DNA from: a bacterium
GTDB lineage: Bacteria; Orphanbacterota; Orphanbacteria; Orphanbacterales; Orphanbacteraceae
Reading direction: 5' to 3'
NCBI GenBank assembly: GCA_025782575.1
Contig: JALGYY010000042.1
Location: forward strand, 29,802 to 93,801
Length of the DNA stretch: 64,000 nt
Below are positions 44,872 to 61,821 of this stretch, piece after piece (within the stretch, counting starts at the first letter, position 1; each line of letters begins with the position of its first letter). A program made the position numbers and the translations under genes. The notes beneath the pieces were generated by a model. It was not told the origin of the DNA and did not search any database. It saw nothing but the letters and a program-made list of their open reading frames with translations.

Positions 44872-45746
44872 CGTTCCAAGAAATGGTGATGGCGCTTGAG
44901 AAGTTCTGGTCTGACCGGGGCTGCGTGATCGCCACTCCTTATAATTCCGAAGTCGGAGCAGGTACGTTCAACCCGGCCACCTTTCTCCGTGTACTTGGTC
45001 CGGAACCCTGGAAAACGGCGTACGTCGAATTCTCGAAACGGCCGAAGGACGGTCGCTACGCGGAAAATCCGAACCGCGTGCAGGGGTTTCACCAGTACCA
45101 GGTCGTTCTGAAGCCTTCCCCCCCCGATGTGCAGGAGACCTATATCGAATCACTTCGCGCCATCGGAATCAATCTGGCAAAGCACGATCTCCGGTTCGTG
45201 GAAGATGACTGGGAATCGCCCACGCTCGGGGCATGGGGCCTCGGCTGGGAAGTCTGGCTCGACGGCATGGAGGTTACGCAGTTTACCTATTTTCAGCAGA
45301 CCGGAAGCATCGACCTCGCTCCGATTTCAGCCGAAATCACTTACGGACTCGAGAGACTCGCGATGTTCATTCAGGGAGTTGATTCTATTTTTGAGATTCA
45401 GTGGAACCAGGACCTGACCTGGGGAGACATACTTCGAACCTCCGAGATCGATTATTGCGCGCTTAATTTCAAAGAAGCCGATATCGATTTCCATCTCAAT
45501 CTGTTTCAGTTTTATGAGAAAGAGGCGATTCGCCTTCTCGAGCTCGGCCATATCTTTCCCGGTTATGATTGCGTCGTAAAATGCTCTCATGCGTTCAACA
45601 TGCTTGAAGCGCGTGGAGCGATCAGCGTCACGGAAAGAACAGGCTACATCACCCGGATCAGAAAAATGGCGAGGCGAGCTGCTGTTCAGTATGTGAAAAG
45701 CCGGGAAGCGCAGGAGTTCCCTCTCCTCCGGGGGGCGAACCGATGA
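44868..45746 (+). CDS. glyQ: Glycyl-tRNA synthetase alpha subunit
   Basis: 292 residues, the normal size of the catalytic alpha subunit of the heterotetrameric bacterial GlyRS. Family blocks: [61 protein letters not shown] and [15 protein letters not shown]. The start is TTG at 44868 overlapping recO, and the stop overlaps glyS by 4 nt (ATGA). Confidence 0.98.
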
Positions 45747-47836
45747 GCCCGTCCGACTTCCTCATTGAAATCGGCACGGAAGAGATCCCCGCCGGCTATG
45801 TGCCGCCCGCGCTCGAGAGTTTTGCCGAAAAGCTACCACTGGTGCTTCGGGAAATGAGAATCGAGTGTGGCGATGTCACGCCGTTCGGCACGCCCCGCAG
45901 ACTGGCGCTCCGACTGGCCGATGTAGCCGAGATGCAGGCTGATGATGAAAGGGAAGTTACCGGTCCGCCCAGTCGTATCGCCTTCGACGGCGAGGGCAAC
46001 CCCACGAAGGCGGCCATCGGTTTCGCGAAGACCAACGGTGTGAAGGTCGAAGAACTTCGGAGGGTGAAGACGGAAAAGGGTGAGTACATCACCGCTACCG
46101 TCTTCGAAAAGGGCAGGCCCACAGGCGAAATACTTAGTGATATCCTGCCCGGTATTGTCGGCGGACTTCCGTTCCCGAAGACCATGCGATGGGATGACAG
46201 CGGATTCCTGTTCGCCCGGCCCGTGCGCTGGATCGTGGCGCTCCATGGAGAGCGGGTTGTGCCTGTCAGGATTGGCGATGTGGAAAGCGGTCGGAAAAGC
46301 CGGGGGCACCGAGTTCTTCATCCTGAACCTGTATTGATCGAATCGCCCGAGTCCTATGAGGAGTCTCTCCGCGCGGCGTACGTAATCGTTTCTCCGGAGG
46401 AACGGCAAAAGAAGATTGAAGAGCAGATCGCAGATATCGCGACGGATGAAGGGGGGCGGATCCTCGACGATCGGTCTCTGGTGGCCCAGGTCAATTACCT
46501 GGTGGAGTATCCCCACGCGATCCGCGGAGCCTTCGACTCCCGCTATCTCAGCTTGCCCGAGCGAGTGATTATTACGGCCATGCGTTCCCATCAGCGCTAT
46601 TTTTCCGTTGTCGACGAGCAGGGAGCGCTCCTTCCCTATTTCGTGACGATCGCCAATGGGGATGGGGCGAATGAGGACCATGTGCGGGCGGGCAATGAAC
46701 GAGTTCTGGCTGCCAGGCTGGCCGACGCCGAGTTCTACTGGAACGAGGACCGGTCCGTGCCGCTGGACGAACGCGTCCTGATGCTCGATCGCGTTCTCTG
46801 GCAGGAAGGTATGGGATCGCTCCTTGACAAGACGGAGCGAATCGAAAAACTGGTGGCCGGGATTCTCGATGAAACGGGGACGGCCGACAGGGATACCCCC
46901 CTCCGTGCCGCCAGGCTTTCAAAGGCGGACCTTACGACGGAGATGATCCGGGATGGAAAAGAGTTCACCGCCCTTCAGGGGTACATGGGCATGGAATACG
47001 CCCGCGTGTCCGGGGAGCCTGAACAGGTTGCACGGACGATATTCGAGCAATATCTTCCGCGGTTCTCCGGGGACGAGCTTCCCGGCTCGTTCTCGGGGGC
47101 TGTGCTCTCTCTTGCGGACCGTGTTGACACGATGCTCGGATGCATCGGTCTCGGCCAGATGCCCACAGGGTCCCAGGACCCCTATGCGCTTCGACGGCAC
47201 GCCCGCGCGGTGCTTCGCATTCTCGGAGAGGGGGGGGTGGCGATCACGCTCCCCCGCCTGCTTCGGCTCGGCGTCGAAGCGTTCGGCGATCGACTCCAGG
47301 ACCCTGAAGCGGTTTATACCAGTACGATCGTATTCCTGCACGACCGTATGAAGAACCTGTTGACCGAGAGAGGTTACCCCTATGACATTGTCGACGCCGT
47401 GCTTGCATCTGGCCTCGAGAACCCGGCGGATTCAGAGAGATGCGTAGAGGCGATCAGGGACTTCCGCAAAAAAGAATCGTTCGAAAAGCTTGTGTTCGGA
47501 TTCAAGCGAGTAGTCAACATCCTGAAGGGAGCCGGGGATGGTAACGAAGTCGACCCGTCTCTCTTTCAAGAAGATGCGGAGAAGGGGCTTCACAAGGCGG
47601 TCGAGAGTATGCGAGCGGGTTACGAGACCGCTCTTACCGGTCATGACTACAGTAAGGCGATGGACGAATTGATTGAGCTCCGGAGCCCGATTGACCGTTT
47701 CTTCGATGAAGTGCTCGTGATGGACAAGGATGAGCGAATCCGAGCTAACCGGGTCTCTCTCCTTTCCGTGGTGGCTCATCTCTTTCGTAAATTGGCCGAT
47801 CTTTCTCAGGTAGTACTGGAAGGAGAATCCCGATAG
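45743..47836 (+). CDS. glyS: Glycyl-tRNA synthetase beta subunit
   Basis: 697 residues, normal for the beta subunit that recognises tRNA-Gly. It begins [20 protein letters not shown]. Further blocks are [54 protein letters not shown] and [17 protein letters not shown], ending in an anticodon-binding-like domain with [21 protein letters not shown] run of eight G at 47230-47237 is in frame. The next gene, a glycosyltransferase, starts 2 nt after the stop, linking tRNA charging to the envelope island. Confidence 0.97.
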
Positions 47837-47838
47837 CT

Positions 47839-48549
47839 ATGGTCAGCGAAATCAGCATTATATTTCCCGCCTACAACGAGGAAGAAAGTGTCGATGAAGC
47901 GGCGCGGCGCGCCGTGGAGGCGGTGGAACTCAGTGGTATTGACGACTATGAGGTAATCTTCGTCGATGACGGCAGTTCGGACGGCACCGCGGCTAAAGTC
48001 GAAGCTCTCTCCGCTTCGAATCCCAGAATAAAGCTCATCAAGCATGACGGCAACAAAGGTTACGCGGAGGCACTCAAAACGGGATTCACTTCGGCGACAA
48101 AGAAATATCTTTTTTATTCGGACGCCGATAATCAATTCGATCTGAAAGAGCTGAAGAACCTGCTGCCTGCGATCGAAGATTATGACATGGTTTGCGGTTT
48201 CCGGATCTATCGGTTCGATCCCCTTTCCCGCCTGTTTCTTTCCTGGGGGTATAACCTGATTGTCAGAGTGATGTTCCGGATTCGAATTCGTGACATCGAT
48301 TGCGCATTCAAGCTTTTCCGGAAAGAGGTATTCGACGTCATCAAGATCGAGTCCAGGAAGTTCTTTGTAGATACGGAAATCCTCGCCAAGGCGCGAAAGT
48401 ACGGACTGAGAGTAACGGAGATCGGAGTGAGACATTACCCCCGGGAAGCGGGGAGTTCCACAGTCCGGCCCAGTCATGTCATTTCGACAATTGCGGAACT
48501 CCTCGAGATGTGGTGGAAGATTATGGTCAGACCCGGAAGCAGGGAATGA
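47839..48549 (+). CDS. GT2 family glycosyltransferase (dolichol-phosphate mannosyltransferase-like)
   Basis: 236 residues, soluble GT-A fold. IIFPAYNEEESVDEAA, VDDGSSDGTAAKVEAL, KGYAEALKTGF, FYSDADNQFDLKEL (metal site) and DIDCAFKLFRKEVF are the DPM1/Alg5-type motifs. It lacks C-terminal membrane helices. It most likely charges a polyprenyl phosphate with a sugar used by the GT-C proteins encoded downstream. GGAAGGAG lies about 12 nt before the ATG. The stop overlaps the first YfhO-type gene (ATGA). Confidence 0.92.
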   Translation: MVSEISIIFPAYNEEESVDEAARRAVEAVELSGIDDYEVIFVDDGSSDGTAAKVEALSASNPRIKLIKHDGNKGYAEALKTGFTSATKKYLFYSDADNQFDLKELKNLLPAIEDYDMVCGFRIYRFDPLSRLFLSWGYNLIVRVMFRIRIRDIDCAFKLFRKEVFDVIKIESRKFFVDTEILAKARKYGLRVTEIGVRHYPREAGSSTVRPSHVISTIAELLEMWWKIMVRPGSRE

Positions 48550-50975
48550 TCCGACTGTTTCGCGCCTCTGCTTTTCTGTTGATCCCAGCCGCTCTCATTA
48601 TTCTGTTTCCCATGGATTTCGACAGCGCCCGTCCGCTCATTACATTTCCAGCCAGTCAATTCGAACCGTGGTTCCAGAAAGCGACAGGTCCGGCTTTCAA
48701 TCCCGATTGCCTGCAGTCGTACTACCCACGGCGCGTCTTTGCCGCGAACGCGCTTCGGGAGGGCCGCCTTCCGCTCTGGGATCCCTATTCATTCTGCGGC
48801 CAGCCCTTTCTCGCCAACTTCCAGGCGGGTGTCTTCTACCCTGTCAATCTCCTGCTGACCCCCTTTTCACCCGAAAGGCAGATGGGGCTGTTCGTCTGGC
48901 TGCACTTGCTGATCGCCGGTCTGGGGGGCGCCGTTTTCATGCGTAGCCTTGGGGTCTCCACCGGAGCGGCTGTAGTTGGTGGCCTTCTCTTCGCGACGAG
49001 CGGGTCACTCGCCGTCCGCACCGGTCAGAGCACGATGCTGGCGAGCGCTGCCTGGTTTCCGCTACTACTCTTTCTGGCAGGAAGGGCGGTGGAACGGAAA
49101 TCCTGGGTGCTGTCCGGCGTCGGTTTCGCCTGCTTTATCCTCTCCGGTTTTCCCCCCATCGTAGCGTGGGGAGCTCTTTTGGCGGTGGCATGGGGAATCT
49201 GGCTCTGGATCCCGATCCGGAAAGAGTCTGGGGTCGCCCCCCTCGTTTGCCTCATCGGTAGCTTTCTTCTCGGTACCGCGCTCGCAGCAATCCAGCTCAT
49301 GCCCACAGCCGAATTCATCATGCAGACCGACCGCATTCGATTTCCCTACTCGACACTTCTGTCGAGTAGTTGGCATCCGGTCGCCCTGCTCCGCCAGCTC
49401 ATCCCCGACTATTTCGGCACACCATTTACGGGTGGCGACTGGCTTCACCTTTTGAAGCGGGGAGACGGCCACTATTATCAGTCATTCATTTCCACCGCAG
49501 CCTATGTGGGGATCGGGGGCCTTCTCCTTTTCACGATCGGTGCCGGCCGCTGGAGAGATCACCGGGCGATCCCCTTCTTCCTGGTCACCGGCGGAGTTTC
49601 CCTTCTTCTGCTATTAGGGACTCCGGTTCTGCGCATCGTCTCAGCCATGCCCGGTCTCGGTGGCGCTCGTGTTGACCGTGTGATTCACATCCCTGTTCTC
49701 GCGCTCTGCGTAATAGCGGCGTTCGGGCTCGACCGGCTGGGAAGGGGAGGTCGTGGCCGGATAACGGGCCAGGTGTTCCCGCTCTTCCTTGGCATAGTCG
49801 TCCTGGTCGCCTACCTGCTTCGACGCAAACTGGCGTTCGCTCTGGTCGGCCCCTCAGCGATTGACCTGGTCGCTCCGATAGGCCTTTCTGTGATGCTCTC
49901 CGGCGTGATGCTCGTCGCTTTTCTGGCAATTTTCCGGTGGGCGCCCTTTCTGAAACGGGCCGGCCTGTTGATCCCGGCAATCGGGCTGCTTCTCATCGCG
50001 GATACGGGGCTTCAGGCCCGCAGGTGCCATGTGACTGCGGGAGAAAACGGTCTCCCTCACGAAACGGATGAAATCCGGTTTCTTACCGGCCGGGCGCAGG
50101 GGGAGGGGGGGGGAGAGGAGGGGCGAATTGTCCGATTCAAGGACGAGATCCTTCCACCCAATCTTCCGGGCATTTTCGGCATTCGGGACGTGGCAGGCTA
50201 CAACGCGCTCAGCATCAAATGGTACAGGCGTTACTTCGCGAACATGGCGGGGAGCGCGGTCAAGGAAAGGCGGATCAACCCGGTCACCGCTCTCCTCTCG
50301 ATCAACTCGCCCCTCCTCGACAGGCTCGGTGCCCGTTTCATCCTGACCGGCACCGACGATTACGGGCTTGATCGGCCGGTCCTCTATAATGGCCGGGTGC
50401 GGATCCTCGACAATCCGACAGCCTACCCCCGTGCCTATCTGACGTATCAGGTCGTCAATCTCGAAAAGCCCGCTCAGGCCTATGCCATTCTCTCCCATCC
50501 TCAGACCCCCAGATTCACAGCGACAATCGAGAGGCGGGAGATCGTCCTCGAACCGGATGACAAGTCGCTGCTTCGGATCAAGGATTGGATCGCCCCGGAG
50601 GGTTCCCCGGTACCTGCCACTTCATTCGGGCCGGAGGAATCGATCGGCGATGACGTCCGATTCATGGTAGACGAACCGGAGCGGATCACTATCGATTGCG
50701 CGTCACAGGGAGGGAGGTTGCTCGTTCTCTCCGACACGTGGTATCCGGGGTGGAAAGCATGGGTGGACGGCGTGGAGTCACCACTCTACCGGGTCAATCG
50801 GATCTTTCGGGGGGTCGTCCTGCCTCGTGGCGTTCATCGGGTCGAGTTCCGTTACCTCCCCCGCTCATTCGCCGCCGGAAGACTGATTTCGGGGATCGCA
50901 TTGGTAATTACTCTGGTCGGAGCGGCTCTCTCCTTGCTCACTCGGAGGAGTCGGGGTAGCATCCGCACAGTATGA
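48546..50975 (+). CDS. YfhO-type multi-pass membrane protein, copy 1
   Basis: 809 residues from the ATG at 48546, which overlaps the stop of the GT2 gene. The same frame is open upstream inside the GT2 gene, but that part is not protein-like. About twelve helices lie in the first 600 residues. The first periplasmic loop has ALREGRLPLWDPYSFCGQPF and VFYPVNLLL, the YfhO signature. The C-terminal 200 residues form a soluble beta domain with LVLSDTWYPGWKAWVDG and RGVVLPRGVHRVEFRY. B. subtilis YfhO glycosylates teichoic acid using a polyprenyl-phosphate sugar; here the acceptor is unknown. It contains an in-frame run of nine G (50105-50113). Confidence 0.88.
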   Translation: MIRLFRASAFLLIPAALIILFPMDFDSARPLITFPASQFEPWFQKATGPAFNPDCLQSYYPRRVFAANALREGRLPLWDPYSFCGQPFLANFQAGVFYPVNLLLTPFSPERQMGLFVWLHLLIAGLGGAVFMRSLGVSTGAAVVGGLLFATSGSLAVRTGQSTMLASAAWFPLLLFLAGRAVERKSWVLSGVGFACFILSGFPPIVAWGALLAVAWGIWLWIPIRKESGVAPLVCLIGSFLLGTALAAIQLMPTAEFIMQTDRIRFPYSTLLSSSWHPVALLRQLIPDYFGTPFTGGDWLHLLKRGDGHYYQSFISTAAYVGIGGLLLFTIGAGRWRDHRAIPFFLVTGGVSLLLLLGTPVLRIVSAMPGLGGARVDRVIHIPVLALCVIAAFGLDRLGRGGRGRITGQVFPLFLGIVVLVAYLLRRKLAFALVGPSAIDLVAPIGLSVMLSGVMLVAFLAIFRWAPFLKRAGLLIPAIGLLLIADTGLQARRCHVTAGENGLPHETDEIRFLTGRAQGEGGGEEGRIVRFKDEILPPNLPGIFGIRDVAGYNALSIKWYRRYFANMAGSAVKERRINPVTALLSINSPLLDRLGARFILTGTDDYGLDRPVLYNGRVRILDNPTAYPRAYLTYQVVNLEKPAQAYAILSHPQTPRFTATIERREIVLEPDDKSLLRIKDWIAPEGSPVPATSFGPEESIGDDVRFMVDEPERITIDCASQGGRLLVLSDTWYPGWKAWVDGVESPLYRVNRIFRGVVLPRGVHRVEFRYLPRSFAAGRLISGIALVITLVGAALSLLTRRSRGSIRTV
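50105..50113. repeat. In-frame run of nine G inside YfhO-type copy 1
   Basis: The run encodes part of QGEGGGEEG in a charged loop. A one-base slip here would stop the protein before its C-terminal domain. It equals in length the run that breaks the sugar dehydrogenase. Confidence 0.9.
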
Positions 50976-53290
50976 CCGGCCGCGCTTTCATTCCACTTCT
51001 CTTTGTCGCCGTTGCCTTGCTGTTCTTTCGAGGCGCGGCGTTTCAGGGGAAGGTCGAGATTCCGTGCAATCCCAATCAGTGGGAGCCGTGGAGTCTTCAT
51101 GCGACTCCGGACGAAAAAGCCCCGCCCGCGATCAACACCGATTGTGCTCTCGCCTACTACCCCCGGCGGGTCATCGCTACCAGGAGCATTCGCCAGGGTG
51201 ATCTCCCCCTCTGGGATCCCTATTCATTCACAGGGCAACCATTTCTGGCCAACTATCAGTCCTCTCTCCTCTACCCGGTCAATCTACTGACCTATCTGCT
51301 CGATCCCTTGAAGGCGATGGGGTGGTTTCTCATCATTCACATGGCTCTCGCCGGCATTTTCGCTTATGTGTGTGCCCGGGGTTTCGGTATGACCACGGCC
51401 GGTGCAGCTGCGGCGGGTCTCGCGTTTCAACTGAACGCGTTCTTCCTGACCAGGGTGGGCCACCCGACCTTTCTCGCCACAGGTGTCTGGGCGCCGCTTG
51501 TTCTCTTCGCGGCCGTTCGTTTGGCGCGCCGTCCCGGTCGACGTTCGGCTGTGTGGCTTGCCGCCGCGCTCGCCCTTTGCGCCTGGGCGGGTTTCCCACA
51601 GACCGCGATCCATGTTTTCGCCATGGTCGCGTGGTTTCTTGTAGTTGCCTGCCTGCCCGGCGGAGTCGGGGGGAGGTCAGGCGCGGGGCGCGTCGCGGTC
51701 TTCGGGGCAGTTGCGATCACTCTCGCGTGCGGCCTGGCGGCTGTTCAGTTGCTTCCTACGGCAGAGCTCCTCAGAGAGTCCACGCGGGAACAGGTCTCGC
51801 TCGATACGTTTTACTCCGGCACTCATCATCCGGCCATGTTGATGCGAATGATTATCCCCGACTTCTTCGGCAATCCGGTTCAAGGCAATCTCTGGTCGAC
51901 GCTGTTTGAAAGGGGAAACGGGTACTATCGCCAGAATTATGTTTCGACCATAAATTACTTTGGGCTGGTGCCGTTGATTGTCGGTGTTTACGGGATCCTG
52001 ACCTGTCGCCGACGTCTGTTCTTCGGCGGACTCTTCCTGTTGCCCTTGCTCGTTGTCCTCGGTACTCCCCTAGCCGCATTGGCCTGGAAGATCCCGGGGC
52101 TCACCCTTTCACGGCCTGACCGGCTTATTCTGCTTCCCTTCCTGGCAAGCTCTCTCGGCCTCGGCTTTGGAATCGATCGACTGACAGCGGCGCGAGGTGA
52201 GGGAGGAGGGCCGCGTAAGATACTGGGAACCCTGTTCGTTCTCATTGCGCTCTTCGCGGGTGGAGTGGCGCTCTACTACGCGCCTCTTGTTGAACGGCTC
52301 TCCCTCGGCAGGATTCCACACGCCTACGCCGCGACGACGATCATTCCATCCGCATGGACGGCGATCGTGATCGCGCTTGTCGCGGCCGGTATTCTTTTCG
52401 CGAAACGGGGAATCGGAAACCGCGCATTTCCCTGGGCGCTCGGTCTCCTTGCCGCTGCGGATCTCTTCCTGTTCGGCAGCCGGTTCCATCTCGATCTTCC
52501 GGAGCGAAGCACATTTCTGGAAGTGCCTGAAATCAAGAGGATTCGGGACGAAATCGGCCCGTATGGGCGTTTCGTACGATACGGGTCCGGAGGGGCCGAT
52601 CTCCTTCCCCCCGGGACTCCCGCGATATACGGGATTCATGATGTGGCCGGCATTAACGCGCTGAACCCGGTACGATTCCGCGATCTCATGAACGCCCTGG
52701 AACCGGGCCTTTATGAGAAGCGCCGGTATCTCCCGCTCCGCCGGCCCGCCAGTCTGGAGTCGCCGATTCTCCAGCTGCTGGGCGCTACCCCCTACACGAT
52801 TGACCGTTCGGGGCGGCTCATACGACATGACGGTCCCACCCCTCTCCCCCGGGCGACCCTTCACTATCGCTGGGAATCAACCACGCCTGACAATATTCTG
52901 GAGAAGCTTCAGAGGCCTGATTTCAATCCGGCCGATCTCCTCCTTCTTGAAGGAGAGACGCCCTCCCCGCCGCTCGCGCCGGGAGCCGGAGTGGCCGATA
53001 TCACTGTATATGAGCCGGATCGCGTGGTAATAGAAACGGTGACGGATTCGGCGGCGTTTCTGCTTCTAACGGACGCCTGGTTCCCCGGGTGGGAAGCCCG
53101 GGTGAATGGGGAGCGGGTAAAGGTCCATCGCGCTGATTACGCGTTCCGGGCCGTCAGTTTGTCTGCCGGGAAACATGTGATAGAGTTTTCCTACCGGCCA
53201 TTCCCCTTCCGGGCGGGGATGATTCTATCGGGTGGTGCTGTCTTGCTCCTGTTCCTGCTTCTCGGAAAAGACAAAAGGATGAAAGAATGA
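50972..53290 (+). CDS. YfhO-type multi-pass membrane protein, copy 2
   Basis: 772 residues, a paralogue of the preceding protein. Shared blocks include RQGDLPLWDPYSFTGQPFLA, LLYPVNLLTYLL, LPTAEL in mid-protein, IYGIHDVAGINALNP and LLTDAWFPGWEARVNG near the end. Copy 1 has VAGYNALS and SDTWYPGWKAWVDG at the matching places. The N-terminal helix is an uncleaved signal anchor. The start overlaps copy 1 by 4 nt and the end overlaps the next gene by 4 nt, so the pair is tightly coupled. Likely role: transfer of sugars from lipid carriers to an envelope acceptor; acceptor unknown. Confidence 0.88.
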   Translation: MTGRAFIPLLFVAVALLFFRGAAFQGKVEIPCNPNQWEPWSLHATPDEKAPPAINTDCALAYYPRRVIATRSIRQGDLPLWDPYSFTGQPFLANYQSSLLYPVNLLTYLLDPLKAMGWFLIIHMALAGIFAYVCARGFGMTTAGAAAAGLAFQLNAFFLTRVGHPTFLATGVWAPLVLFAAVRLARRPGRRSAVWLAAALALCAWAGFPQTAIHVFAMVAWFLVVACLPGGVGGRSGAGRVAVFGAVAITLACGLAAVQLLPTAELLRESTREQVSLDTFYSGTHHPAMLMRMIIPDFFGNPVQGNLWSTLFERGNGYYRQNYVSTINYFGLVPLIVGVYGILTCRRRLFFGGLFLLPLLVVLGTPLAALAWKIPGLTLSRPDRLILLPFLASSLGLGFGIDRLTAARGEGGGPRKILGTLFVLIALFAGGVALYYAPLVERLSLGRIPHAYAATTIIPSAWTAIVIALVAAGILFAKRGIGNRAFPWALGLLAAADLFLFGSRFHLDLPERSTFLEVPEIKRIRDEIGPYGRFVRYGSGGADLLPPGTPAIYGIHDVAGINALNPVRFRDLMNALEPGLYEKRRYLPLRRPASLESPILQLLGATPYTIDRSGRLIRHDGPTPLPRATLHYRWESTTPDNILEKLQRPDFNPADLLLLEGETPSPPLAPGAGVADITVYEPDRVVIETVTDSAAFLLLTDAWFPGWEARVNGERVKVHRADYAFRAVSLSAGKHVIEFSYRPFPFRAGMILSGGAVLLLFLLLGKDKRMKE

Positions 53291-54957
53291 GTCGCGTTCT
53301 CGTAATCGGCCTTGACGGAGTAACTTTCGATACATTCGATCCATGGATGAGTCAGGGGGTCCTCCCGTACCTGTCTCAGTTCATGAAAAAGGGCGTTCAC
53401 TCGTCTCTCGACTCGGTCTTTCCCCCGATCACGTCTACCGCCTGGTCATCAATCATGACGGGGATGAACCCGGGGAAGACGGGGATTTTCGAATTCCTCT
53501 ACTCGAACAGCAACAGCTTCGACCTGACGCCCGTAAACGCCACGGTCCGTGACGGTGTCCCTCTCTGGGAAATCCTCTCCCGGGAAGGGAAGAAGGTAAT
53601 CGCCATCAGCGTGCCGGTCACCTATCCGCCGGCTGAAGTGAACGGCATAGTGATCAGCGGATTTCTGACTCCCCCCGGGGTGAGAGACTTTACCCATCCG
53701 CCGGAGCTTGTCGATGAGATCGAATCCAGATGGGGACCATATCCGCTCTACCATAAAGAGGTTTATCAAAAGGGGAAGGTCGATCTGGTAATCGATGAGG
53801 CGTTCCATCACCTCCGCTATCGGCGTGATATGACGCTGGCACTGCTCAAGGAAAAAGAGTGGGATTTCTGCATCAGTTACTTCGAAGGGACTGACCGCAT
53901 GCAACACGAGGTATGGCATATCCACGACGAAAGCCATCCCCATTCGAGTCCGAAGGAGATCGCGAAGTATGGCGAAAGGGTGCTGGACTATTATCGAGAA
54001 GTGGACGAAACGGTCCGTCTCCTCACGGAAGCGGTGGCAGACGAAGATACGACCGTAATGGTGATGTCCGATCATGGTTTCGGACCCATCCACTACTATA
54101 TGAACTTCAACGTATGGCTTCTCGAAGAGGGGCTCCTGGTTCTCAAGAGGGATGCATTTACCCTCTTGAAGAGACTGATATTCGCCGCGGGCCTGACTCC
54201 GGCGTTCGGATATCGCATGGCCATGCGTCTCGGCCTGGCTGGTCTTCGCCTCTCCCAGGGAGTGGGAGGTCGATCCAGGCTCTTCGATCTCATTAACAAT
54301 ATTTTTCTATCTCTTGAGAACATCGACTGGAAACGAACTCGGGCCTATTCCAAGGGGAACTACGGGCAGATCTATGTGAATCTGAAAGGCCGGGAACCCG
54401 AAGGTTCTGTCGATCCGGCGGAATACGATTCCACGGTCGCCGAGATTGTCGACAGGGTAGGAAAGATCCCCCATCCCGATACCGGGGAACCTCTCATGCA
54501 GAGCGTGTTTACCCGTGAAGAAATATACGAGGGTCCGTACGTCGAGCGGATGGCGGATGTGATGTTCAAGCCGGCGGACATGCGGTTCAAGGCGCTCGGC
54601 ATTGTTGATTTCACAACCAAGCGTTTCATCGAACCGACGTTCGGAAATTCGGGTGACCATAGAATGAACGGTCTCTTCGCGGCATGCGGCGGTCCGATCC
54701 GGGTTTCGCCCGAACGTCTGGCCGAGCATTCCATCTGCGATGTCACGCCTACCGTTCTTCATCTTTTCGGGCTCCCGGTACCGACCGATATGGACGGCCG
54801 AGTGATGGAGGCTGTGTTCGACCAGGAGTGGCTCCGCAAAAATCCGGTTAAGACGCGCGAGCCGTATGAGCGGCAGAAGCAAGAGGAACTCGATCTTACT
54901 GATGACGAACGGCGGGAGATCATCGAACGTCTGAAGGGCATGGGGTATGTCGGGTAA
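53287..54957 (+). CDS. Alkaline phosphatase superfamily phosphodiesterase/phosphotransferase
   Basis: 556 residues without signal peptide or membrane helix, so probably cytoplasmic or membrane-associated. The type I phosphodiesterase/nucleotide pyrophosphatase fold is shown by VLVIGLDGVTFDTFDPW (metal Asp), PPITSTAWSSIMTGMNPGKT (Thr49 in the nucleophile position), TDRMQHEVWHIHD and VMVMSDHGFGPIHYY. It ends DERREIIERLKGMGYVG, like the two sulfatase-fold lipoproteins of this window. Relatives with this layout occur in polysaccharide and lipid loci of many bacteria, but the substrate is unknown. Its end overlaps the broken GT-C gene by 11 nt. Confidence 0.9.
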   Translation: MSRVLVIGLDGVTFDTFDPWMSQGVLPYLSQFMKKGVHSSLDSVFPPITSTAWSSIMTGMNPGKTGIFEFLYSNSNSFDLTPVNATVRDGVPLWEILSREGKKVIAISVPVTYPPAEVNGIVISGFLTPPGVRDFTHPPELVDEIESRWGPYPLYHKEVYQKGKVDLVIDEAFHHLRYRRDMTLALLKEKEWDFCISYFEGTDRMQHEVWHIHDESHPHSSPKEIAKYGERVLDYYREVDETVRLLTEAVADEDTTVMVMSDHGFGPIHYYMNFNVWLLEEGLLVLKRDAFTLLKRLIFAAGLTPAFGYRMAMRLGLAGLRLSQGVGGRSRLFDLINNIFLSLENIDWKRTRAYSKGNYGQIYVNLKGREPEGSVDPAEYDSTVAEIVDRVGKIPHPDTGEPLMQSVFTREEIYEGPYVERMADVMFKPADMRFKALGIVDFTTKRFIEPTFGNSGDHRMNGLFAACGGPIRVSPERLAEHSICDVTPTVLHLFGLPVPTDMDGRVMEAVFDQEWLRKNPVKTREPYERQKQEELDLTDDERREIIERLKGMGYVG

Positions 54958-55591
54958 CGGTTCTCGCCGCCGCGACGGGCTTATACTCGGGTCGCTCGCG
55001 CTGCTGTCTCTCGTGATTTTTTCTCTCTACTGGAACCATGGCCTGAACGACGACGAAGGCTACCTGCTCGGCGGCGTTACCCGGATACTGGACGGCCAGG
55101 TACCGTACAGGGACTTCCATCACACCTATGCACCCGGCCGCTTCTATCTGATCGCCGGCCTCTTTCGCCTGTTCGGCGAGAACCTGCTGGTCGTTCGACT
55201 GCTCTGGGTCGTCATGCGGATAGGAGTGGTCCTTCTCGGATACGGCGCCGCACGGACCATACTGTCACGCCCATCATCGATCGCTCTTGCTCTTATTCTG
55301 CTGGTGGCGCCGGGACCATGGCACAAGTCGTTCTTCCATCTGTTCCTTCTCGCTAACATGCTCGCCCTCGCCCGCCTCCGGCCGGGGAGGGAAGACAAGT
55401 ACGCCCTGATGACCGCAGGCATGGTAGCCGGTGTGACGATGCTGTTTCGTCAGGACCTCGGTCTGTTCGCATTGGCGTCTTACGGGATGATCGCCGTTCT
55501 TTGCCGATGGACCGGGGAGTCCTGGCGCCGGGCTTCGGTTTTTTTTTATCCGCCCTCGTTCCGGTTGTTCCTTTCATCATCTACTTCCTGA
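54947..55591 (+). CDS. GT39/ArnT-like (GT-C) glycosyltransferase, N-terminal part; frameshifted
   Basis: The first 200 residues are the N-terminal half of a GT-C protein. A first helix (about 13-30) is followed by NHGLNDDEGYLLGGVTRILD, with the catalytic-type acidic pair, then GQVPYRDFHHTYAPGRFYL and several helices. After a run of nine T at 55539-55547 the frame turns to a Ser-rich tail and stops at 55591, while hydrophobic family-like sequence continues in the -1 frame. A ten-T or seven-T run would give one protein from 54947 to 56541. It is therefore a frameshift, a sequencing indel or a slippage site. Confidence 0.85.
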   Translation: MSGNGSRRRDGLILGSLALLSLVIFSLYWNHGLNDDEGYLLGGVTRILDGQVPYRDFHHTYAPGRFYLIAGLFRLFGENLLVVRLLWVVMRIGVVLLGYGAARTILSRPSSIALALILLVAPGPWHKSFFHLFLLANMLALARLRPGREDKYALMTAGMVAGVTMLFRQDLGLFALASYGMIAVLCRWTGESWRRASVFFYPPSFRLFLSSSTS

Positions 55592-56541
55592 TTCAGGGAG
55601 CTCTTCCCGAAGCGGCGGATAAGATCTTTCTTGCCGGAATGCGAGACAACCGGACGAACACCATTCCCTTTCCCCCTCTCTTTCATCCTGTTTCCGGCGG
55701 GACGGCGGGCGTGTCGTTCTTTCTGCTTCGGATCCTCTATTACTTGCCGGTCCCGCTTTACGGCCTGACGGCTGTCTACGGCCTGACCCGTCTTTTAAAG
55801 GGAAACGGGGAGGGGAGGGTCCTGCTTCTCTTCTCCGCCCTGGGATTCCTCGCTTTCAATCAGACCATCTGGCGGAGTGATCTGGCCCATCTCTTTCAGT
55901 CCCTCCCGCCGTTCTATCTACTCATTCTCGTGCTGTTCGAACGAATGGGGAGACGATGGAGCGGAGTGCACAGGGTCCTCGTTTTCGGAATACCGATCGC
56001 CCTCCTCCTGATCCTCCATCAATACACCCTGGTCTATCGATCACCTGCCGGTCCGGCCCGGATCGCGGCGGAGGGATTTCAGCCCGTTCCCCCCTATTAC
56101 ACCGGGTCGGTTGTGCAGCTAGGAGAAATGACAGTCCCCCTTCCCCTTGAGAGGGCCCGCGTCCTCGTTTCGCCGGGCCAGGCCGCTTTCATGGCCGCTC
56201 TCCAGAGGACGATCGACGAGTATTCCCGGCCGGGGGACTACATCCTGACTGTCCCCGGACTGCAACTCAGCTACTTCCTGTTCGACCGGAAGAACCCGAC
56301 CGGGTACATTCATCTGAGACGATCGCTCGATTCGAGAGAAGAGGAGGCACGGTACATCAGCGACATTCTCGACCACGACACGCGGCTGGTTCTTCTCCGG
56401 GACCTCGCGATCGACGGAAGGCCGGAACGGCGGTTCCGTGTTTTTGCGGCTGCACCGACGGCCGCAATCGAATCGTCATTTGATATGGTTGATCAGATCG
56501 GGGACATCAACGTCTTCGTCCGCAGAGGGAGTGGGATTTGA
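55501..56541 (+). CDS. GT39/ArnT-like (GT-C) glycosyltransferase, C-terminal part; frameshifted
   Basis: This frame carries the rest of the GT-C protein: four to six helices (FFLSALVPVVPFIIYFLIQG, RILYYLPVPLYGLTAVYGL, GVHRVLVFGIPIALLLIL), then a soluble C-terminal domain of about 150 residues. The ATG at 55501 overlaps the N-terminal half and is probably not a genuine start; real continuation begins at the T run. The last 4 nt overlap the LPG-synthase-type gene, so the operon arrangement stays intact across the break. This argues against long-standing decay. Confidence 0.82.
   Translation: MPMDRGVLAPGFGFFLSALVPVVPFIIYFLIQGALPEAADKIFLAGMRDNRTNTIPFPPLFHPVSGGTAGVSFFLLRILYYLPVPLYGLTAVYGLTRLLKGNGEGRVLLLFSALGFLAFNQTIWRSDLAHLFQSLPPFYLLILVLFERMGRRWSGVHRVLVFGIPIALLLILHQYTLVYRSPAGPARIAAEGFQPVPPYYTGSVVQLGEMTVPLPLERARVLVSPGQAAFMAALQRTIDEYSRPGDYILTVPGLQLSYFLFDRKNPTGYIHLRRSLDSREEEARYISDILDHDTRLVLLRDLAIDGRPERRFRVFAAAPTAAIESSFDMVDQIGDINVFVRRGSGI
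55539..55547 (+). repeat. Run of nine T at the GT-C frameshift; possible -1 slippery site
   Basis: In the upstream frame the codons are GTT TTT TTT TAT. The heptamer T-TTT-TTT fits the X-XXY-YYZ pattern of -1 ribosomal frameshift sites, and a -1 shift gives ...VFFLSALVP..., continuing into the downstream frame. Confidence 0.85.
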
Positions 56542-57512
56542 AAGGCAATCTGATTCGCCTCTTCGTTACCGGGGCTCTGCTTTACCTGATCGTAACGAGG
56601 GTCGACTGGACGGAGTTTCGGACGATCGGGGCTGAGGTTCGGCTCGGCCATATTTTCGTCGCCTATCTGCTGAATCTCCTGATGGTGGCGCTCAATACGG
56701 TTCGCTGGCAGGTGCTCGTGGCGGCACTCGGAACGAGAGTCGCCATTCTGCCTCTCACCGGGTACTACTTCGTCTGCATGTTCTTTAATAACTTCATGCC
56801 TACATCAATTGGCGGCGACGTCATGCGCGTCCTCGATCTCGCCGGGCATACAGGGAAGAAGTCGTCCGCCATGGCCTCGATTCTAGTGGAGCGGCTGCTC
56901 GGTTTGTACGCGCTCATGCCGATCAGTGTGATCGCATTCATCCTGCTCTATTCATCACTCCCCAAGAGGGGAATCTTCCTTGTCGCCGAATCGGGGATGG
57001 CTGTTCTCTTTCTTGTCGGGACCATTCTGATCCGCCGGACCACGCTCCGGAAGTTGCAGCCGCTCTTCCGTCCCTTCGAAAAGTGGATCGCTAAAATGGG
57101 GATAAGGGAAAAGGGAGGACGTCTCTATGATCATCTCGATCTCTACAAAGGACGGATGGGTGTCGTTCTAGCCGCTTTCGTCTTCTCGATTCTCTCGAGA
57201 GTAGTCTGGATCGTGGCCTGCTGGATTTTCGGGCGGGCCATCGGCCTCGATCTTCCGCCGGCGGTTTTCTTTCTGCTCATGCCGTTGGTGGAAGTGGGAC
57301 GGATGCTCCCGATCTCACTCGGCGGTGTGGGGATCCGTGAGGGGATGTTTGTCATAATACTGGGACTATTCGGAGTGGGGCCGACAGCGGCGGTATTCGT
57401 CTCGATCCTGGTTTACGGAGTGTTCATCCTGAACGGCTTGATCGGCGGCGTCATCTATGGCTTGCGCGGATTTTTCTCGAACCCTGAAGGATCCGCCGGA
57501 GAGAACGTGTGA
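56538..57512 (+). CDS. Lysylphosphatidylglycerol synthase-type (UPF0104) flippase-like membrane protein
   Basis: 324 residues with about eight helices and no soluble synthase domain. The LPG_synthase_TM signature is clear: VDWTEFRTIG at the N-terminus, CMFFNNFMPTSIGGDVMRVL near residue 90-110, and EVGRMLPISLGGVGIREGMF near residue 255-275. Members act as flippases for LPG or are paired with glycosyltransferases (AglD2-like). In this island a lipid-linked sugar flipping or transfer role is plausible. The start is TTG at 56538 overlapping the GT-C stop; the end overlaps the next gene by 4 nt (GTGA). Confidence 0.9.
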   Translation: MKGNLIRLFVTGALLYLIVTRVDWTEFRTIGAEVRLGHIFVAYLLNLLMVALNTVRWQVLVAALGTRVAILPLTGYYFVCMFFNNFMPTSIGGDVMRVLDLAGHTGKKSSAMASILVERLLGLYALMPISVIAFILLYSSLPKRGIFLVAESGMAVLFLVGTILIRRTTLRKLQPLFRPFEKWIAKMGIREKGGRLYDHLDLYKGRMGVVLAAFVFSILSRVVWIVACWIFGRAIGLDLPPAVFFLLMPLVEVGRMLPISLGGVGIREGMFVIILGLFGVGPTAAVFVSILVYGVFILNGLIGGVIYGLRGFFSNPEGSAGENV

Positions 57513-59770
57513 CGCTGATTCCCCGCCAGCGCATCACCTTACTTCTATTCGCCGCCGGTCTTATTTTCCGGCTCCTCTATCTTTTTGAATCGGGCGACAA
57601 TCCCTTTTTCCAGGGTCTCGGTCTTGATGCCCGCTACTATGACATACGTGCAGAGGAGATTCTGAACGAGGGATTGATCGGCAACGAAGCCTACTTCATG
57701 GGGCCTCTCTACCCTCATCTTCTCGCCGCACTCTACGGAATCGCCGGACGCAATCTGCTGCTCGTTCGACTTCTTCAGGCGATCGCATCGGCCCTGGTCC
57801 CCGTGCTGCTCTACCGGCTGGGGGTTCGTCTGTTCCGTCCCACCGCGGCGCTTCTTGCTGCGATCATCGCCGTCCTGTACGGCCCCTTCATTTTCTATAT
57901 CGGTTCGATTCTCTACACGACCGTGGCGGTAACACTTCTAATCTGGATTCTGGATCGACTGTTCGAAAACCCACGGAAGCGGCCGTACCGTCAAAGGTTC
58001 CTGACAGGTCTTCTGTTCGGGCTCGCCACGGTGGGGAAAGGAAACATTCTGCTCTTTCTCCCGTTTGCCGCATGGATCATTGTGCGAGGAACAGAAAACC
58101 GGCCGGTCGGGCGATGGAAACAGGCAGCCGTTTTCATCGCAGGATTCGGTCTGGTCATCGGTCTTGTGACCGCCAGGAACTTCGCTGCCGGCGGTGACTT
58201 CGTCCCGCTCACATCGAATGGAGGAATCAACTTCTACATAGGGAACGGGCCGGAGTCGTCCGGTGCCTATGAGAAGCCGAAAGGGCTCGACGTAGATAAT
58301 GACCCGACCGGCAAGGGAATGCTCGAGAAGCGCCTCGGCAGGCCTCTGGCCCCCGACGAAGTTTCACGGATCTGGCGCGACAGGGCTCTTGATTTCATCC
58401 GCGCCAACCCGGGAGCCGAGGCTGCACTGATGGCCAGAAAGACCGTCTTCTTCTTTTCAACATTCGAGATTCCGCAGATCGAAAGCTATCATTTCCAGAA
58501 GAGATACAGCATGTTGCTGCGGGCGCTGTTCATTCCGTTCGGCCTGCTCATGCCGCTCGCCATGGGGGCACTGGTTATTCACCGATCGGCACGAACGTAC
58601 GGTTTGGCATTTTTCGTTTTTGCATACGCGGCATCGATCATTCTCTTTTTCGTTCTCACTCGATATCGACTTCCTCTTCTCCCCGTTATCATTCTGCTCG
58701 CTTCCGTTTCCATCGTGAGGCTGGTCGAGGCCTTCAGAGGGGGAGGAGTCAAGGGAGGCGCGGCCATTCTATTCGTTGCCGCACCGGTATTCATTTTCTG
58801 CAATACCAATTTCTACAATGTCTCGCCAAGTACGGGCAATGCGCAGTCACACTACCGGCTCGGAATCATCTACGGCAGGGAGGGTAGGGCCGAAGAGGCG
58901 ATCACCGAGTATCGAAGATCGGTCGAACTCGATCCGGCATATGAGAAGGCAAGACTGAACCTCGGAGAACTGCTCGCAGTCCGGGGGAGACCCGAAGAGG
59001 CGGAAGCTCAGTTTCGTGCGGCAATCAATCTGGATCCTGATTATTCCAAGGCCCATCTGAATCTGGGGGCGCTTCTGTATCGCTCCGGCTCCACCGATGG
59101 CCGGGTCCATCTGGAGCGGGCCGTGGCGCTTAACCCGGAATACGGAAAGGCCTGGCTCCACCTTGCCGCGGCATCATTGCTCGATGGGAAGGGTGGCGCC
59201 GGCGAGGCGGCCGCACGAGCCGTCAGCCTTCTGCCCGCTTCCGATCCCGCCCGTGGAGCAGCGGTGCTGCTCGAGGTGCGCATCGAAGAGATCATGGGGA
59301 TCGACCGTTGGCGCCGTAGTTCCGGATACGGAGGTGCCCTCCCGATGGAAACGAAAGAAGCGACCGTCCGGGAAATCCTGCGGGATCGGGAGAACATCGA
59401 GGGGCTCTATCGGTCGGCTGCCTCCACCGGCGATCCAGGTGCGCTCTATCTATTTGGTGCATATCTCTTTCGCCGGGAGGGATACGCGGAAGCGGGGGCG
59501 TTCTTCAACCGGGCAGCTGACGTCGCTCCCGATCTCCCCTACCTGCGCTTCGCACTCGGATTAATTTACCTGCGAAGTAATGATCCCGGCCTGGCGCTGG
59601 CGCAATTCATTCTGGAGACCGAAAACAACCCGAGCAATGTGAACGCCTGGAAAAACGGCGCCCTTCTTTCCGCGCAAATCGGTCAGGAGCGGGAAGCCAG
59701 GCGTCTTGCGGAAGAGTACATCCGCCTTGGCGGCCAACCGGACGAGTCGATCCGATCCATTCTTTTTTAG
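57509..59770 (+). CDS. GT-C (GT39-like) membrane glycosyltransferase fused to TPR repeats
   Basis: 753 residues from a GTG at 57509. The membrane part (about 1-430) has ten or so helices. LGLDARYYDIRAEEILNEG in the first loop carries the acidic residues of the GT-C active site, and MGPLYPHLLAALYG matches ArnT-like proteins. From residue 443 there are TPR repeats (HYRLGIIYGREGRAEEAITE, ARLNLGELLAVRGRPEEAE, AHLNLGALLYRSG), with more near 640-750. Similar O-GlcNAc-transferase-like TPR/GT-C fusions are annotated in many environmental bacteria. The TPR part may recruit a protein acceptor on the outer face of the membrane. It is the last gene of the long operon and its stop overlaps the convergent gene's stop. 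Confidence 0.87.
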   Translation: MTLIPRQRITLLLFAAGLIFRLLYLFESGDNPFFQGLGLDARYYDIRAEEILNEGLIGNEAYFMGPLYPHLLAALYGIAGRNLLLVRLLQAIASALVPVLLYRLGVRLFRPTAALLAAIIAVLYGPFIFYIGSILYTTVAVTLLIWILDRLFENPRKRPYRQRFLTGLLFGLATVGKGNILLFLPFAAWIIVRGTENRPVGRWKQAAVFIAGFGLVIGLVTARNFAAGGDFVPLTSNGGINFYIGNGPESSGAYEKPKGLDVDNDPTGKGMLEKRLGRPLAPDEVSRIWRDRALDFIRANPGAEAALMARKTVFFFSTFEIPQIESYHFQKRYSMLLRALFIPFGLLMPLAMGALVIHRSARTYGLAFFVFAYAASIILFFVLTRYRLPLLPVIILLASVSIVRLVEAFRGGGVKGGAAILFVAAPVFIFCNTNFYNVSPSTGNAQSHYRLGIIYGREGRAEEAITEYRRSVELDPAYEKARLNLGELLAVRGRPEEAEAQFRAAINLDPDYSKAHLNLGALLYRSGSTDGRVHLERAVALNPEYGKAWLHLAAASLLDGKGGAGEAAARAVSLLPASDPARGAAVLLEVRIEEIMGIDRWRRSSGYGGALPMETKEATVREILRDRENIEGLYRSAASTGDPGALYLFGAYLFRREGYAEAGAFFNRAADVAPDLPYLRFALGLIYLRSNDPGLALAQFILETENNPSNVNAWKNGALLSAQIGQEREARRLAEEYIRLGGQPDESIRSILF

Positions 59771-61821
59771 CCCGGAAGCCGATAGAGTTCGATACCTTTC
59801 CATGAGGCGATCAGCACGCACCGGCTCCACGTATCGTCCAGGATCTCGATCGATTCGGACGGATACCCTTTCGCAAACACTCGCTGAAGAGGGCGGTTCA
59901 CGATCACCCAGTCGAAACCCTCCTGCTTGAGACGGGCAATGAGATTCCCCGCAGTTTTTTCTTTCTCCGCCAGCCGAACGACCTGGGACGCCTCAAAAAA
60001 GCTGTCAGCAAAGTAGGGTCGACTCGAATAGTATACCCGGTTCTCGAACACCATGAAAACGCGCTCCCCCTCCAGTACATATTCCGCGATGCCCCTCAGG
60101 GCGTCGTACGATTGCACTTTTCGTGATAGATAGGATTTCCTCGATTCGCTTCCCGTGACGACCGGTAGCGTGTCGAGAAGAGTTTCGCGGCCATAGGGGA
60201 AAATCGTCGCCGCCGCGACGAGTGTGAGCAGGATGGGGACGACCGGGGGGAGCCAGCGGGGACGGTAGCCCTTCCGCATGCAGGCCCCTCCTGCGAGCGC
60301 CGACGCGAGCAGGACGACAGGCGCCAGGAACCGGAGCTGCTGGGAGCCGATCCCCCAGATCATGATACCGGCCCAGGTCATGAGCAGGAGAGTGCGGCTC
60401 CTGCGATGGGCGGCGACAATCAGGGGGACGGCGGCGATCAGGGCGGGTGAGAGGATCCCGTCGAAAAAACGGTACCCCTGCTGACCCTGCATGACGATTC
60501 GCCATGGGAGGAGAAGCCAGTCGATAGGGGTCCGCCCGGGTCCCATTCCGAACTGCCATGCGTGTAGTCTTCCGTGAGATGTCAGGTCCCATGACGCTCC
60601 GTTTGCGGCCACGAAAATGGCAGGGAACAGGGGAGAGCCGCTTTCAATCCAACCCTTGATCAGCCAGGGGAGAAGGACGGCATGGGAGATGAGAATGAAG
60701 AGGACCAGAGATCGTACGCGTTCGGCCGGTGAATCGATTCTCCCCCCACCGATCGATTCTGATCGGGGTAGAAAAATTGCGGCGAGCAGAAGGGGCCAGG
60801 TCAGGTAAGCGCTCAGCTTAATGGTGAGTAACCCACCGCCGAGCAGGGCGGCTGCAGCTACGCTCCGCCCCGGTCGGCTACTCGGTCTGCCGTCGATCAG
60901 GAGCAGAAGGGCGGTGCCGAAGAGATAGGAGGCAATAAGGTCCACGTTGCCAACGGTACGGGGGTCGAGAAAGAGAGGAAGCGAGGCGGTGATCAGCGCG
61001 CCTCCCGCGCAGACGGCTCCGGAATCCGGCCCGTTTCGACCTTGGTCCCTCCCCGGTCGGGTATAGATCGATCGAGCCAATGCGCCGCCCAACAATACGT
61101 TACCGATGAAAAGCAGAAGGTGGAGGGTGAGCGCGGCCCCCTCGCCCCCGAAAAGGACTCCTGCTGCGTAGAAGAGGTCCCCCCCATGAGGCATCCGCCC
61201 GTAGATCGACTCGGGGGGGGCGTGAAAACGCCCGGTCGCCGCATACTCGGCGGCCAGAGTCTGATGGTAGACCAGGGAATCGTTCGATGTGAGAGGCGCG
61301 AAAGAACGGATACCCACCGTGGCAATGGCGAGTGCAATGACTGCCATCAGCAGAAGGGTGATTCGATTCGTCGGGAGAGCGGGGCGGCGGAGCCAGCTAG
61401 GCCTGAACGTCTTCTCGCTGATCTTCCTGAATGCCGGAAGGCCGGGGAAGAGGAGGCAACCGAGAAGGATGAGTGGCCGAAACCACCCGGCGGCGAGAAG
61501 AAGGAACGATACCGTCATCCCATAGACGAGCCCCATTCCGATCAGGAGAAGTGGGGAAGGGCGTTCCAATCGGAAGAGACGACTCGCCGTCAGACCGCTC
61601 GGAATAAGCGCAAGAACGAGCCCGGTCCCGGCCGCGAGTGATCTTAGATAGGTACCCCACTGACTCGCGTGTGACGGAGTGTAGGAAGGGTTTCCGAAGA
61701 GGGGTCGGGCGGGGTGAGACAGGAACCAGAGCGCCAGAACGGTCCCGGCAAACAGGAGCCCCCCTGCAGTCCGAAACGTGGAAGATCCCACCACTTTTGC
61801 GATCGGAAATCCTCTTGACAC
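59767..61821 (-). CDS. Multi-pass membrane protein, GT-C/GT39-like
   Basis: 684 residues from a GTG at 61821, with a first helix at about 19-35 (GGLLFAGTVLALWFLS). About twelve helices are visible. The loop FAPLTSNDSLVYHQTLAAEY has an N-D-S/H pattern typical of GT-C proteins that use a polyprenyl-linked donor, and a C-terminal soluble domain (about 560-684) has DWVIVNRPLQRVF. I cannot name a closer family. Its stop overlaps the stop of the convergent GT-C-TPR gene by 2 nt. A plus-strand promoter element lies over its start codon. It may serve the same pathway as the island but is transcribed separately. Confidence 0.78.
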   Translation of the reverse strand: MSRGFPIAKVVGSSTFRTAGGLLFAGTVLALWFLSHPARPLFGNPSYTPSHASQWGTYLRSLAAGTGLVLALIPSGLTASRLFRLERPSPLLLIGMGLVYGMTVSFLLLAAGWFRPLILLGCLLFPGLPAFRKISEKTFRPSWLRRPALPTNRITLLLMAVIALAIATVGIRSFAPLTSNDSLVYHQTLAAEYAATGRFHAPPESIYGRMPHGGDLFYAAGVLFGGEGAALTLHLLLFIGNVLLGGALARSIYTRPGRDQGRNGPDSGAVCAGGALITASLPLFLDPRTVGNVDLIASYLFGTALLLLIDGRPSSRPGRSVAAAALLGGGLLTIKLSAYLTWPLLLAAIFLPRSESIGGGRIDSPAERVRSLVLFILISHAVLLPWLIKGWIESGSPLFPAIFVAANGASWDLTSHGRLHAWQFGMGPGRTPIDWLLLPWRIVMQGQQGYRFFDGILSPALIAAVPLIVAAHRRSRTLLLMTWAGIMIWGIGSQQLRFLAPVVLLASALAGGACMRKGYRPRWLPPVVPILLTLVAAATIFPYGRETLLDTLPVVTGSESRKSYLSRKVQSYDALRGIAEYVLEGERVFMVFENRVYYSSRPYFADSFFEASQVVRLAEKEKTAGNLIARLKQEGFDWVIVNRPLQRVFAKGYPSESIEILDDTWSRCVLIASWKGIELYRLPG

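Follow-up and report, generated by a model that had tools for sequence, protein, structure and literature searches.

Results

A block of seven overlapping genes

We analysed a 64,000-nucleotide stretch of DNA (hereafter the window; GCA_025782575.1, contig JALGYY010000042.1, positions 29,802 to 93,801) from a 4.9 Mb metagenome assembly (G000) of the Orphanbacteraceae. It contains a block of seven genes, here called A to G, all on the plus strand between positions 47839 and 59770, which according to Pfam and NCBIfam encode a family 2 glycosyltransferase (GT2), two YfhO proteins, a PF01663 enzyme of the alkaline phosphatase (AP) superfamily, a PMT_2 glycosyltransferase of the GT-C type, a PF03706 membrane protein and a PMT_2 protein carrying tetratricopeptide repeats (TPR) (Table 1). 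Neighbouring genes share 4 bp at the A/B, B/C, C/D, E/F and F/G junctions and 11 bp at D/E. A preliminary description made from the sequence had listed the same seven families, overlapping head to tail, as a candidate envelope glycosylation system; its families and coordinates were all recovered, on the plus strand, with the correction that E is no single open reading frame but consists of two, which join at nine consecutive thymines (T9). No epimerase was found between 47839 and 61821 in the list of open reading frames or by Pfam, and the region 40000-64000 gave no Rfam match to an RNA element.

Conservation in three phylum-level groups

The locus is real and conserved. Our comparison set comprised 20 genomes in three phylum-level groups, namely the phylum of the window (seven genomes, G000 to G006, all of one family), the G140 phylum (eight genomes) and the G072 phylum (five genomes). 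In all seven genomes of the first, the order recO-glyQ-glyS-A-B-C-D-E-F-G-H-PD40, with H on the opposite strand, is kept as far as the contigs extend, and A and D are 72-79% and 68-73% identical among them, respectively. The two other phyla, both small, carry a reshuffled core of D, A, YfhO and G, usually just behind glyQS; the G140 locus, for example, reads recO-glyQ-glyS-D-A-YfhO-E-F-YfhO-G, with its members together in a different order. D is present in 8/8 genomes of the G140 phylum and 5/5 of the G072 phylum. Throughout the set, D and A occur together in 19 of the 20 genomes, the contig of the twentieth stopping inside D, and G was found on every contig long enough to reach its place. E, F and the second YfhO gene are variable, as seen in G247 (D-A-F-YfhO-G) and in the G072 phylum (D-A-GT-C-YfhO-D''-G). 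Given this conservation in 20 genomes and three phylum-level groups, the gene set is not there by chance. When 241 genomes were surveyed, genes strongly matching A, D and YfhO were again found clustered in unrelated families.

The preliminary description had made its proposal depend on the set staying together in relatives and on its differing from characterised capsule or teichoic-like loci. Both points hold: the block is conserved as a unit, and we found no match to such a locus. A horizontally acquired capsule or O-antigen island was rejected, as the block lies in conserved housekeeping synteny and its base composition is unremarkable.

Parts of the block recur at other places. A trio of D-type phosphodiesterase, GT2 and YfhO lies away from glyQS in G123, where a TPR protein, the GT2, the phosphodiesterase and YfhO stand in a row and are followed by a carbamoyltransferase (L119:83-7676). 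A related trio, with an AP-superfamily sulfatase beside GT2 and YfhO, is found at another site in three of the genomes from the window's phylum (L120:8323-13096, which is G000:C2, ~764.3-769.1 kb; L121; L122). In L120 the sulfatase has a lipoprotein-like signal and the trio adjoins tilS-ftsH-folP. In other families, an A-type GT2 directly adjoins a more distant D-type phosphodiesterase at G104:C132:1529-3996 and lies within ~4 kb of one in G154:C155.

Table 1. Genes and sequence features of the block and its surroundings (positions refer to the window)
Feature	Position	Strand	Match or note
A: GT2, polyprenyl-phosphate sugar synthase type (ArnC/DPMS/GtrB/CsbB-like)	47839..48549	+	PF00535 8e-32
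B: YfhO-family GT-C	48546..50975	+	PF09586 2e-16
C: second YfhO-family GT-C	50972..53290	+	PF09586 6e-17
D: NPP-type AP-superfamily phosphodiesterase	53287..54957	+	PF01663 1e-45
E, first frame: N-terminal half of PMT_2 GT-C, NDDEGYLLGGVTRIL motif	54947..55591	+	PF13231 4e-6
T9 run, frame-change point of E	55539..55547	+	
E, second frame: C-terminal part of GT-C	55501..56541	+	orthologue identity 54%
F: PF03706 (LPG_synthase_TM) / TIGR00374 flippase-like membrane protein	56538..57512	+	Pfam 5e-38, NCBIfam 4e-17
G: PMT/ArnT-like GT-C fused to C-terminal TPR (from ~440)	57509..59770	+	PMT_2 9e-10, TPR
H: convergent GT-C-like membrane protein	59767..61821	-	LIC_10190 family, weak match
recO-glyQ-glyS: housekeeping genes immediately upstream, positional landmark outside the system	44113..47836	+	

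Putative charging enzyme, YfhO proteins and flippase candidate

The nearest solved relatives of A in a sequence search are ArnC (1e-22) and dolichol-phosphate mannose synthase (DPMS, 1e-18). Its DXD motif (D95-x-D97) is intact, with both aspartates invariant in seven sequences (the window and six relatives), and a transmembrane scan found no helix in A. By a simple scan, B has 13 predicted transmembrane helices and a 295-residue outer loop before the last of them, C has 11 and a 242-residue outer loop at the same place, and F has 8. C was aligned in a set of 23 sequences that included other phyla, and F with its orthologues; a sequence search for solved relatives of C returned no relevant match. 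B weakly matches the NCBIfam model PgfM2 and C weakly matches PgfM1 and PgfM2, and the scores for PgfS, PgfM1 and PgfM2 lie below the curated cut-offs (64 vs 500, 25 vs 1400 and 19-29 vs 1500 bits, respectively).

Multi-component transmembrane glycosylation systems combine a polyprenyl-phosphate-type GT2 with DXD motif, a GtrA/GtcA flippase and a YfhO GT-C with a large outer loop. The block encodes the first and the last of these, whereas its flippase candidate F belongs to PF03706. The block contains no GtrA/GtcA (PF04138) gene. Four genomes (G000, G003, G004 and G006) match PF04138 outside the block, and G001, G002 and G005, the last of which is only 82% complete, do not match it at all.

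G combines a GT-C half with a predicted outward TPR domain

The structural model of G (predicted local distance difference test, pLDDT, 86) has 11 membrane helices followed by the TPR domain. Residues 1-445 align with Pmt4, Pmt2, oligosaccharyltransferase (OST) and ArnT (Z 20.8-23.7), and the stretch that starts at residue 440 aligns with the TPR domain of O-GlcNAc transferase (OGT). With 11 helices and the N-terminus inside, the TPR domain would lie outside, and human TMTCs likewise carry their TPR on the outer side (PMC7801869). G shares with the TMTCs the GT-C membrane half and the C-terminal TPR. However, the DUF1736 loop (PF08409) gave no match in G at E <= 0.01, and in place of the DD motif of the first outer loop G has one invariant aspartate, D40, followed by A or S. 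No TMTC structure was among the matches listed in the fold alignment of G, which excludes nothing. The resemblance to Pmt and TMTC enzymes makes a protein acceptor plausible, and to this extent the earlier idea that the TPR domain recruits a protein is a reasonable one.

D is an NPP-type phosphodiesterase without export signal

D scores 157 bits against PF01663 (cut-off 23). Residues D10, T49, D203, H207, D262, H263 and H458 are invariant in 17 orthologues from the three phyla and G123; they were placed in the active site by motif position, T49 being the presumed nucleophile and the others presumed metal ligands. In the model of D (pLDDT 86) the nearest solved folds are nucleotide pyrophosphatases/phosphodiesterases (NPP/ENPP), with Z ~27 over ~350-360 residues against NPP1/3 and Xac NPP, and NPP3 solved with UDP-GlcNAc is among them. 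D thus has the fold, the full set of metal ligands and the threonine nucleophile of the NPP-type enzymes of the AP superfamily.

Neither the transmembrane scan nor the sequence and model revealed a signal peptide or transmembrane helix in D, and its N-terminus (MSRVLVIGLDG) is already in the first catalytic strand. D therefore is probably cytosolic, and it lacks the membrane anchor or export signal that places the AP domain of phosphoglycerol-transferase/LtaS-type enzymes outside. The preliminary description had also considered phosphate esters on the surface; with no export signal and a fold closest to NPP-type phosphodiesterases, transfer of such esters by D is not supported and was rejected. 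Its position next to A, its fold and the lack of export signals suggest instead that D hydrolyses a phosphodiester of the donor pathway in the cytosol, and we favour carrier or donor recycling over phosphate-ester decoration. We know of no regulatory-looking enzyme such as D from glycosylation systems of this kind. Several further PF01663-type proteins (open frames of 446-849 aa) are clustered at G000:C2:948568-970965, and such clusters of an expanded AP family are also found in G001-G006 and others.

The split frame of E

The two frames of E overlap and meet at T9, and the true start of the second frame is the frame change near 55540. G002, G003, G004 and G006 have full-length, in-frame orthologues of E; in G002, G003 and G004 these lack the T9 run, and in G006 it is present but in frame (G006:C19:17112-17120). 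G001 carries the same T9 at the same place in E (G001:C4:67265-67273) and is split in the same direction as the window. As the assembled sequences stand, full-length E is reached in the window genome only through a -1 shift at T9, which is also needed in G001. One extra nucleotide at T9 makes the E proteins of both genomes align there without gaps to the intact orthologues. Moreover, amino-acid constraint is alike on either side of the run (dN 0.38 before and 0.43 after, with dS of 1.7-2.1, near saturation). T9/A9 tracts are few, with five in G000 (one of them a T11), two in G001 (3.8 Mb) and two in G006 (3.3 Mb), and in each of these genomes one tract sits in E. The window and G001 therefore show the features expected at a slippage site, namely a run of nine or more T at which two overlapping frames join and a downstream frame that is conserved. 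No special hairpin before T9 exceeded shuffled sequences.

Tracts of nine A or T tend to cause slippage and are selected against in many bacteria, and in Shigella mxiE a T run joins two overlapping frames so that one extra nucleotide in the mRNA leads to the long product (PMC1088944). In E, the -1 shift would come about either by transcriptional slippage that adds one U or by -1 ribosomal slipping. Out of frame in two genera, T9 suggests recoding as in mxiE, phase variation or assembly error, the latter two remaining candidates because both genomes are metagenome assemblies. The sister grouping of G000 and G001 has a support of 0.07; a sister relation would make the split one shared event. T9 as a general assembly habit was rejected, as there are few further T9/A9 runs and inspection by eye revealed no other frame-split at them.

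Surroundings of the block

H stands convergent to the block, at its end, in two phyla, as seen throughout the window's phylum as far as contigs extend and again in G140/G241, and its homologue in L149 matches PMT_2 at 4e-11; H may be an eighth component. A second group of glycosyltransferases lies at 28242-32338 of the window and comprises a GT2 (28242-28958, minus strand), an unassigned gene (28958-30523, minus strand) and a cellulose-synthase-like GT2 (30887-32338, plus strand). This group is also kept in G001 and G002.

Discussion

Our analysis indicates that the block is probably a variant of the known CsbB-GtcA-YfhO/Pgf design, also called multi-component transmembrane glycosylation. Gene content, overlaps, conservation, intact catalytic residues and folds are direct observations, and from family membership we infer the activities, sugar, acceptor and substrate of D in the following scheme. 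A would move a sugar from a nucleotide-sugar onto polyprenyl phosphate at the cytoplasmic leaflet, and F, replacing the usual GtrA/GtcA protein, would flip the lipid-P-sugar outward. Outside, the sugar would then be transferred by the GT-C proteins, namely B, C, E, G and perhaps H. Among these, the YfhO enzymes B and C may assemble or decorate a chain or an acceptor at the surface, and G, with its Pmt-like GT-C half and outward-facing TPR superhelix, probably acts as a glycosyltransferase on exported proteins in the fashion of the TMTCs. D probably resides in the cytosol and there probably cleaves a donor-pathway phosphodiester, either the polyprenyl-P-sugar or the nucleotide-sugar; this would free the carrier or restrain flux, similar to the role of UshA for CsbB-YfhO in Bacillus. 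The charging, flipping and transfer steps, which the preliminary description had already proposed, are well supported by the families present, with an ArnC/DPMS-like GT2 carrying DXD, a PF03706 protein and YfhO plus further GT-C enzymes. A bolder version makes the locus an ancient machine of the three phyla that unites a cytosolic carrier-recycling NPP phosphodiesterase, a PF03706 flippase, TMTC-like protein glycosylation and, in some genera, a dose control or switch by slippage at T9; taken as a whole, this seems to us distinctly improbable.

Several observations weigh against the pathway outlined here. E or F is absent or replaced in some lineages (E in G247, F in the G072 phylum). For F, sequence searching detected no solved relative, so its flipping role is taken from the family name, and the D family has many paralogues in these genomes, so that homology does not disclose the substrate of D. 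Furthermore, a wider stretch is syntenic between the window's and the G140 phyla, including PhoH, CNNM, recO and glyQS at one end and H and PD40 at the other. Position is therefore weak evidence in these two phyla, which weakens the step from staying together to working together. This shared housekeeping synteny would fit genes that are neighbours by inheritance and do not form one pathway. We consider such an origin very unlikely, because the same members persist in a shuffled order, because G140-type flanking synteny was not seen in the G072 phylum and yet the block persists there, and because the trio with D-type phosphodiesterase stands without glyQS in G123; the sulfatase-type trio in three genomes of the window's phylum also argues against it. 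Together, reshuffling, persistence and the trio in G123 argue for a functional unit.

If the block is such a unit, its acceptor might still be a glycan or lipid such as lipopolysaccharide core, O-antigen or exopolysaccharide, reached by the same lipid-carrier chemistry, with the TPR domain of G binding a partner in the assembly machine. YfhO enzymes of Bacillus and Listeria attach sugars to teichoic acids (PMC5836110), the closest phage relatives are GtrB-type GT2 enzymes of O-antigen conversion, and ArnT, a modifier of lipid A, is among the structural neighbours of G. The best of these neighbours, however, are protein O-mannosyltransferases and OST, the combination of GT-C and TPR is the architecture of the protein-modifying TMTCs (PMC7801869), and Pfam revealed none of the polymerases, ABC exporters or ligases of polysaccharide pathways in the block, so that we regard this acceptor as possible but rather unlikely. 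We are similarly doubtful that D is a phosphomutase or a nucleotide-sugar pyrophosphatase which prepares or controls the sugar donor and does not free the carrier. Nucleotide-sugars are among the substrates of NPP enzymes, phosphomutases belong to the AP superfamily, and the NPP/ENPP likeness of D, including NPP3 with UDP-GlcNAc, fits such a role; D accompanies GT2 and YfhO enzymes of lipid-carrier pathways, however, and not genes of nucleotide-sugar synthesis, and a lipid substrate fits at least equally well. An assembly error or recent inactivating mutation in E, with a functionless T9 run, deserves somewhat more credit, although we lean away from it. Both genomes with a split E are metagenome assemblies, compared here as assembled sequences, and G002, G003 and G004 carry in-frame copies that lack the run. 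Against this stand the position of T9 at the same spot of E in three genomes otherwise very poor in T9/A9 runs, the same direction of the split in two genera and the similar constraint on both sides.

GT2-flippase-YfhO systems have been characterised in Firmicutes, and here such a system, with extra parts, appears as a stable and probably housekeeping locus of uncultured phyla. The block had been put forward as undescribed, which is valid for the combination; the core design is already published (PMC5836110, PMC8035078, PMC5856776). Within the literature collection that we searched, we found no described system of YfhO, TPR and AP-fold proteins, and none for Eisenbacteria either. Through this locus, carrier-lipid glycosylation becomes linked to an NPP-type phosphodiesterase, PF03706 emerges as a candidate family for the flipping of lipid-P-sugars, and G stands as a bacterial counterpart of GT-C/TPR enzymes.

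In the best-known relative, CsbB makes undecaprenyl phosphate (UndP)-GlcNAc, GtcA flips it and YfhO transfers the sugar to lipoteichoic acid (PMC5836110, PMC11898649); the YfhO of B. subtilis has 13 transmembrane helices and a large outer loop (PMC5836110), and B and C, with 13 and 11 predicted helices, are similar to it. The block resembles the CsbB-GtcA-YfhO systems of Bacillus and Listeria (PMC5836110, PMC7389260, PMC8035078) in encoding a cytoplasmic DXD GT2, a flippase candidate and a YfhO GT-C together. It differs from them in its PF03706 protein in place of GtcA/PF04138, in the lack of C-terminal transmembrane helices in A, in its several GT-C enzymes, AP-fold enzyme and GT-C/TPR fusion, and in a host that is not a Firmicute. 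In Streptococcus mutans, PgfS and two YfhO-like PgfM proteins modify surface proteins, and the operon PgfS-PgfM1-PgfE-PgfM2 likewise has one GT2 and two YfhO-like membrane proteins (PMC5856776); the block, in contrast, has no PgfE epimerase, scores far under the curated cut-offs and additionally contains PF03706, D, E and G. The proposed cytosolic release of carrier lipid by D would parallel, by analogy only, UshA, the UndP-sugar hydrolase of the SigM regulon; Bacillus needs such a hydrolase in its GT2-YfhO pathway when UndP-sugars accumulate (PMC11898649). UshA, however, is an alpha/beta hydrolase, whereas D is an NPP-type phosphodiesterase encoded within the operon. G recalls the O-mannosyltransferases TMTC1-4 (PMC7801869) in its 11-helix GT-C half followed by TPR on the non-cytosolic side, but it is bacterial and has neither the DUF1736 loop nor the DD motif, and homology exists at the level of the fold only. 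Finally, E is similar to Shigella mxiE in its two overlapping frames joined at a T run, although E is a glycosyltransferase gene, seen here at the DNA level, and has orthologues without the run. If the T9 site is real, a glycosyltransferase would join the few cellular genes known to rely on slippage.

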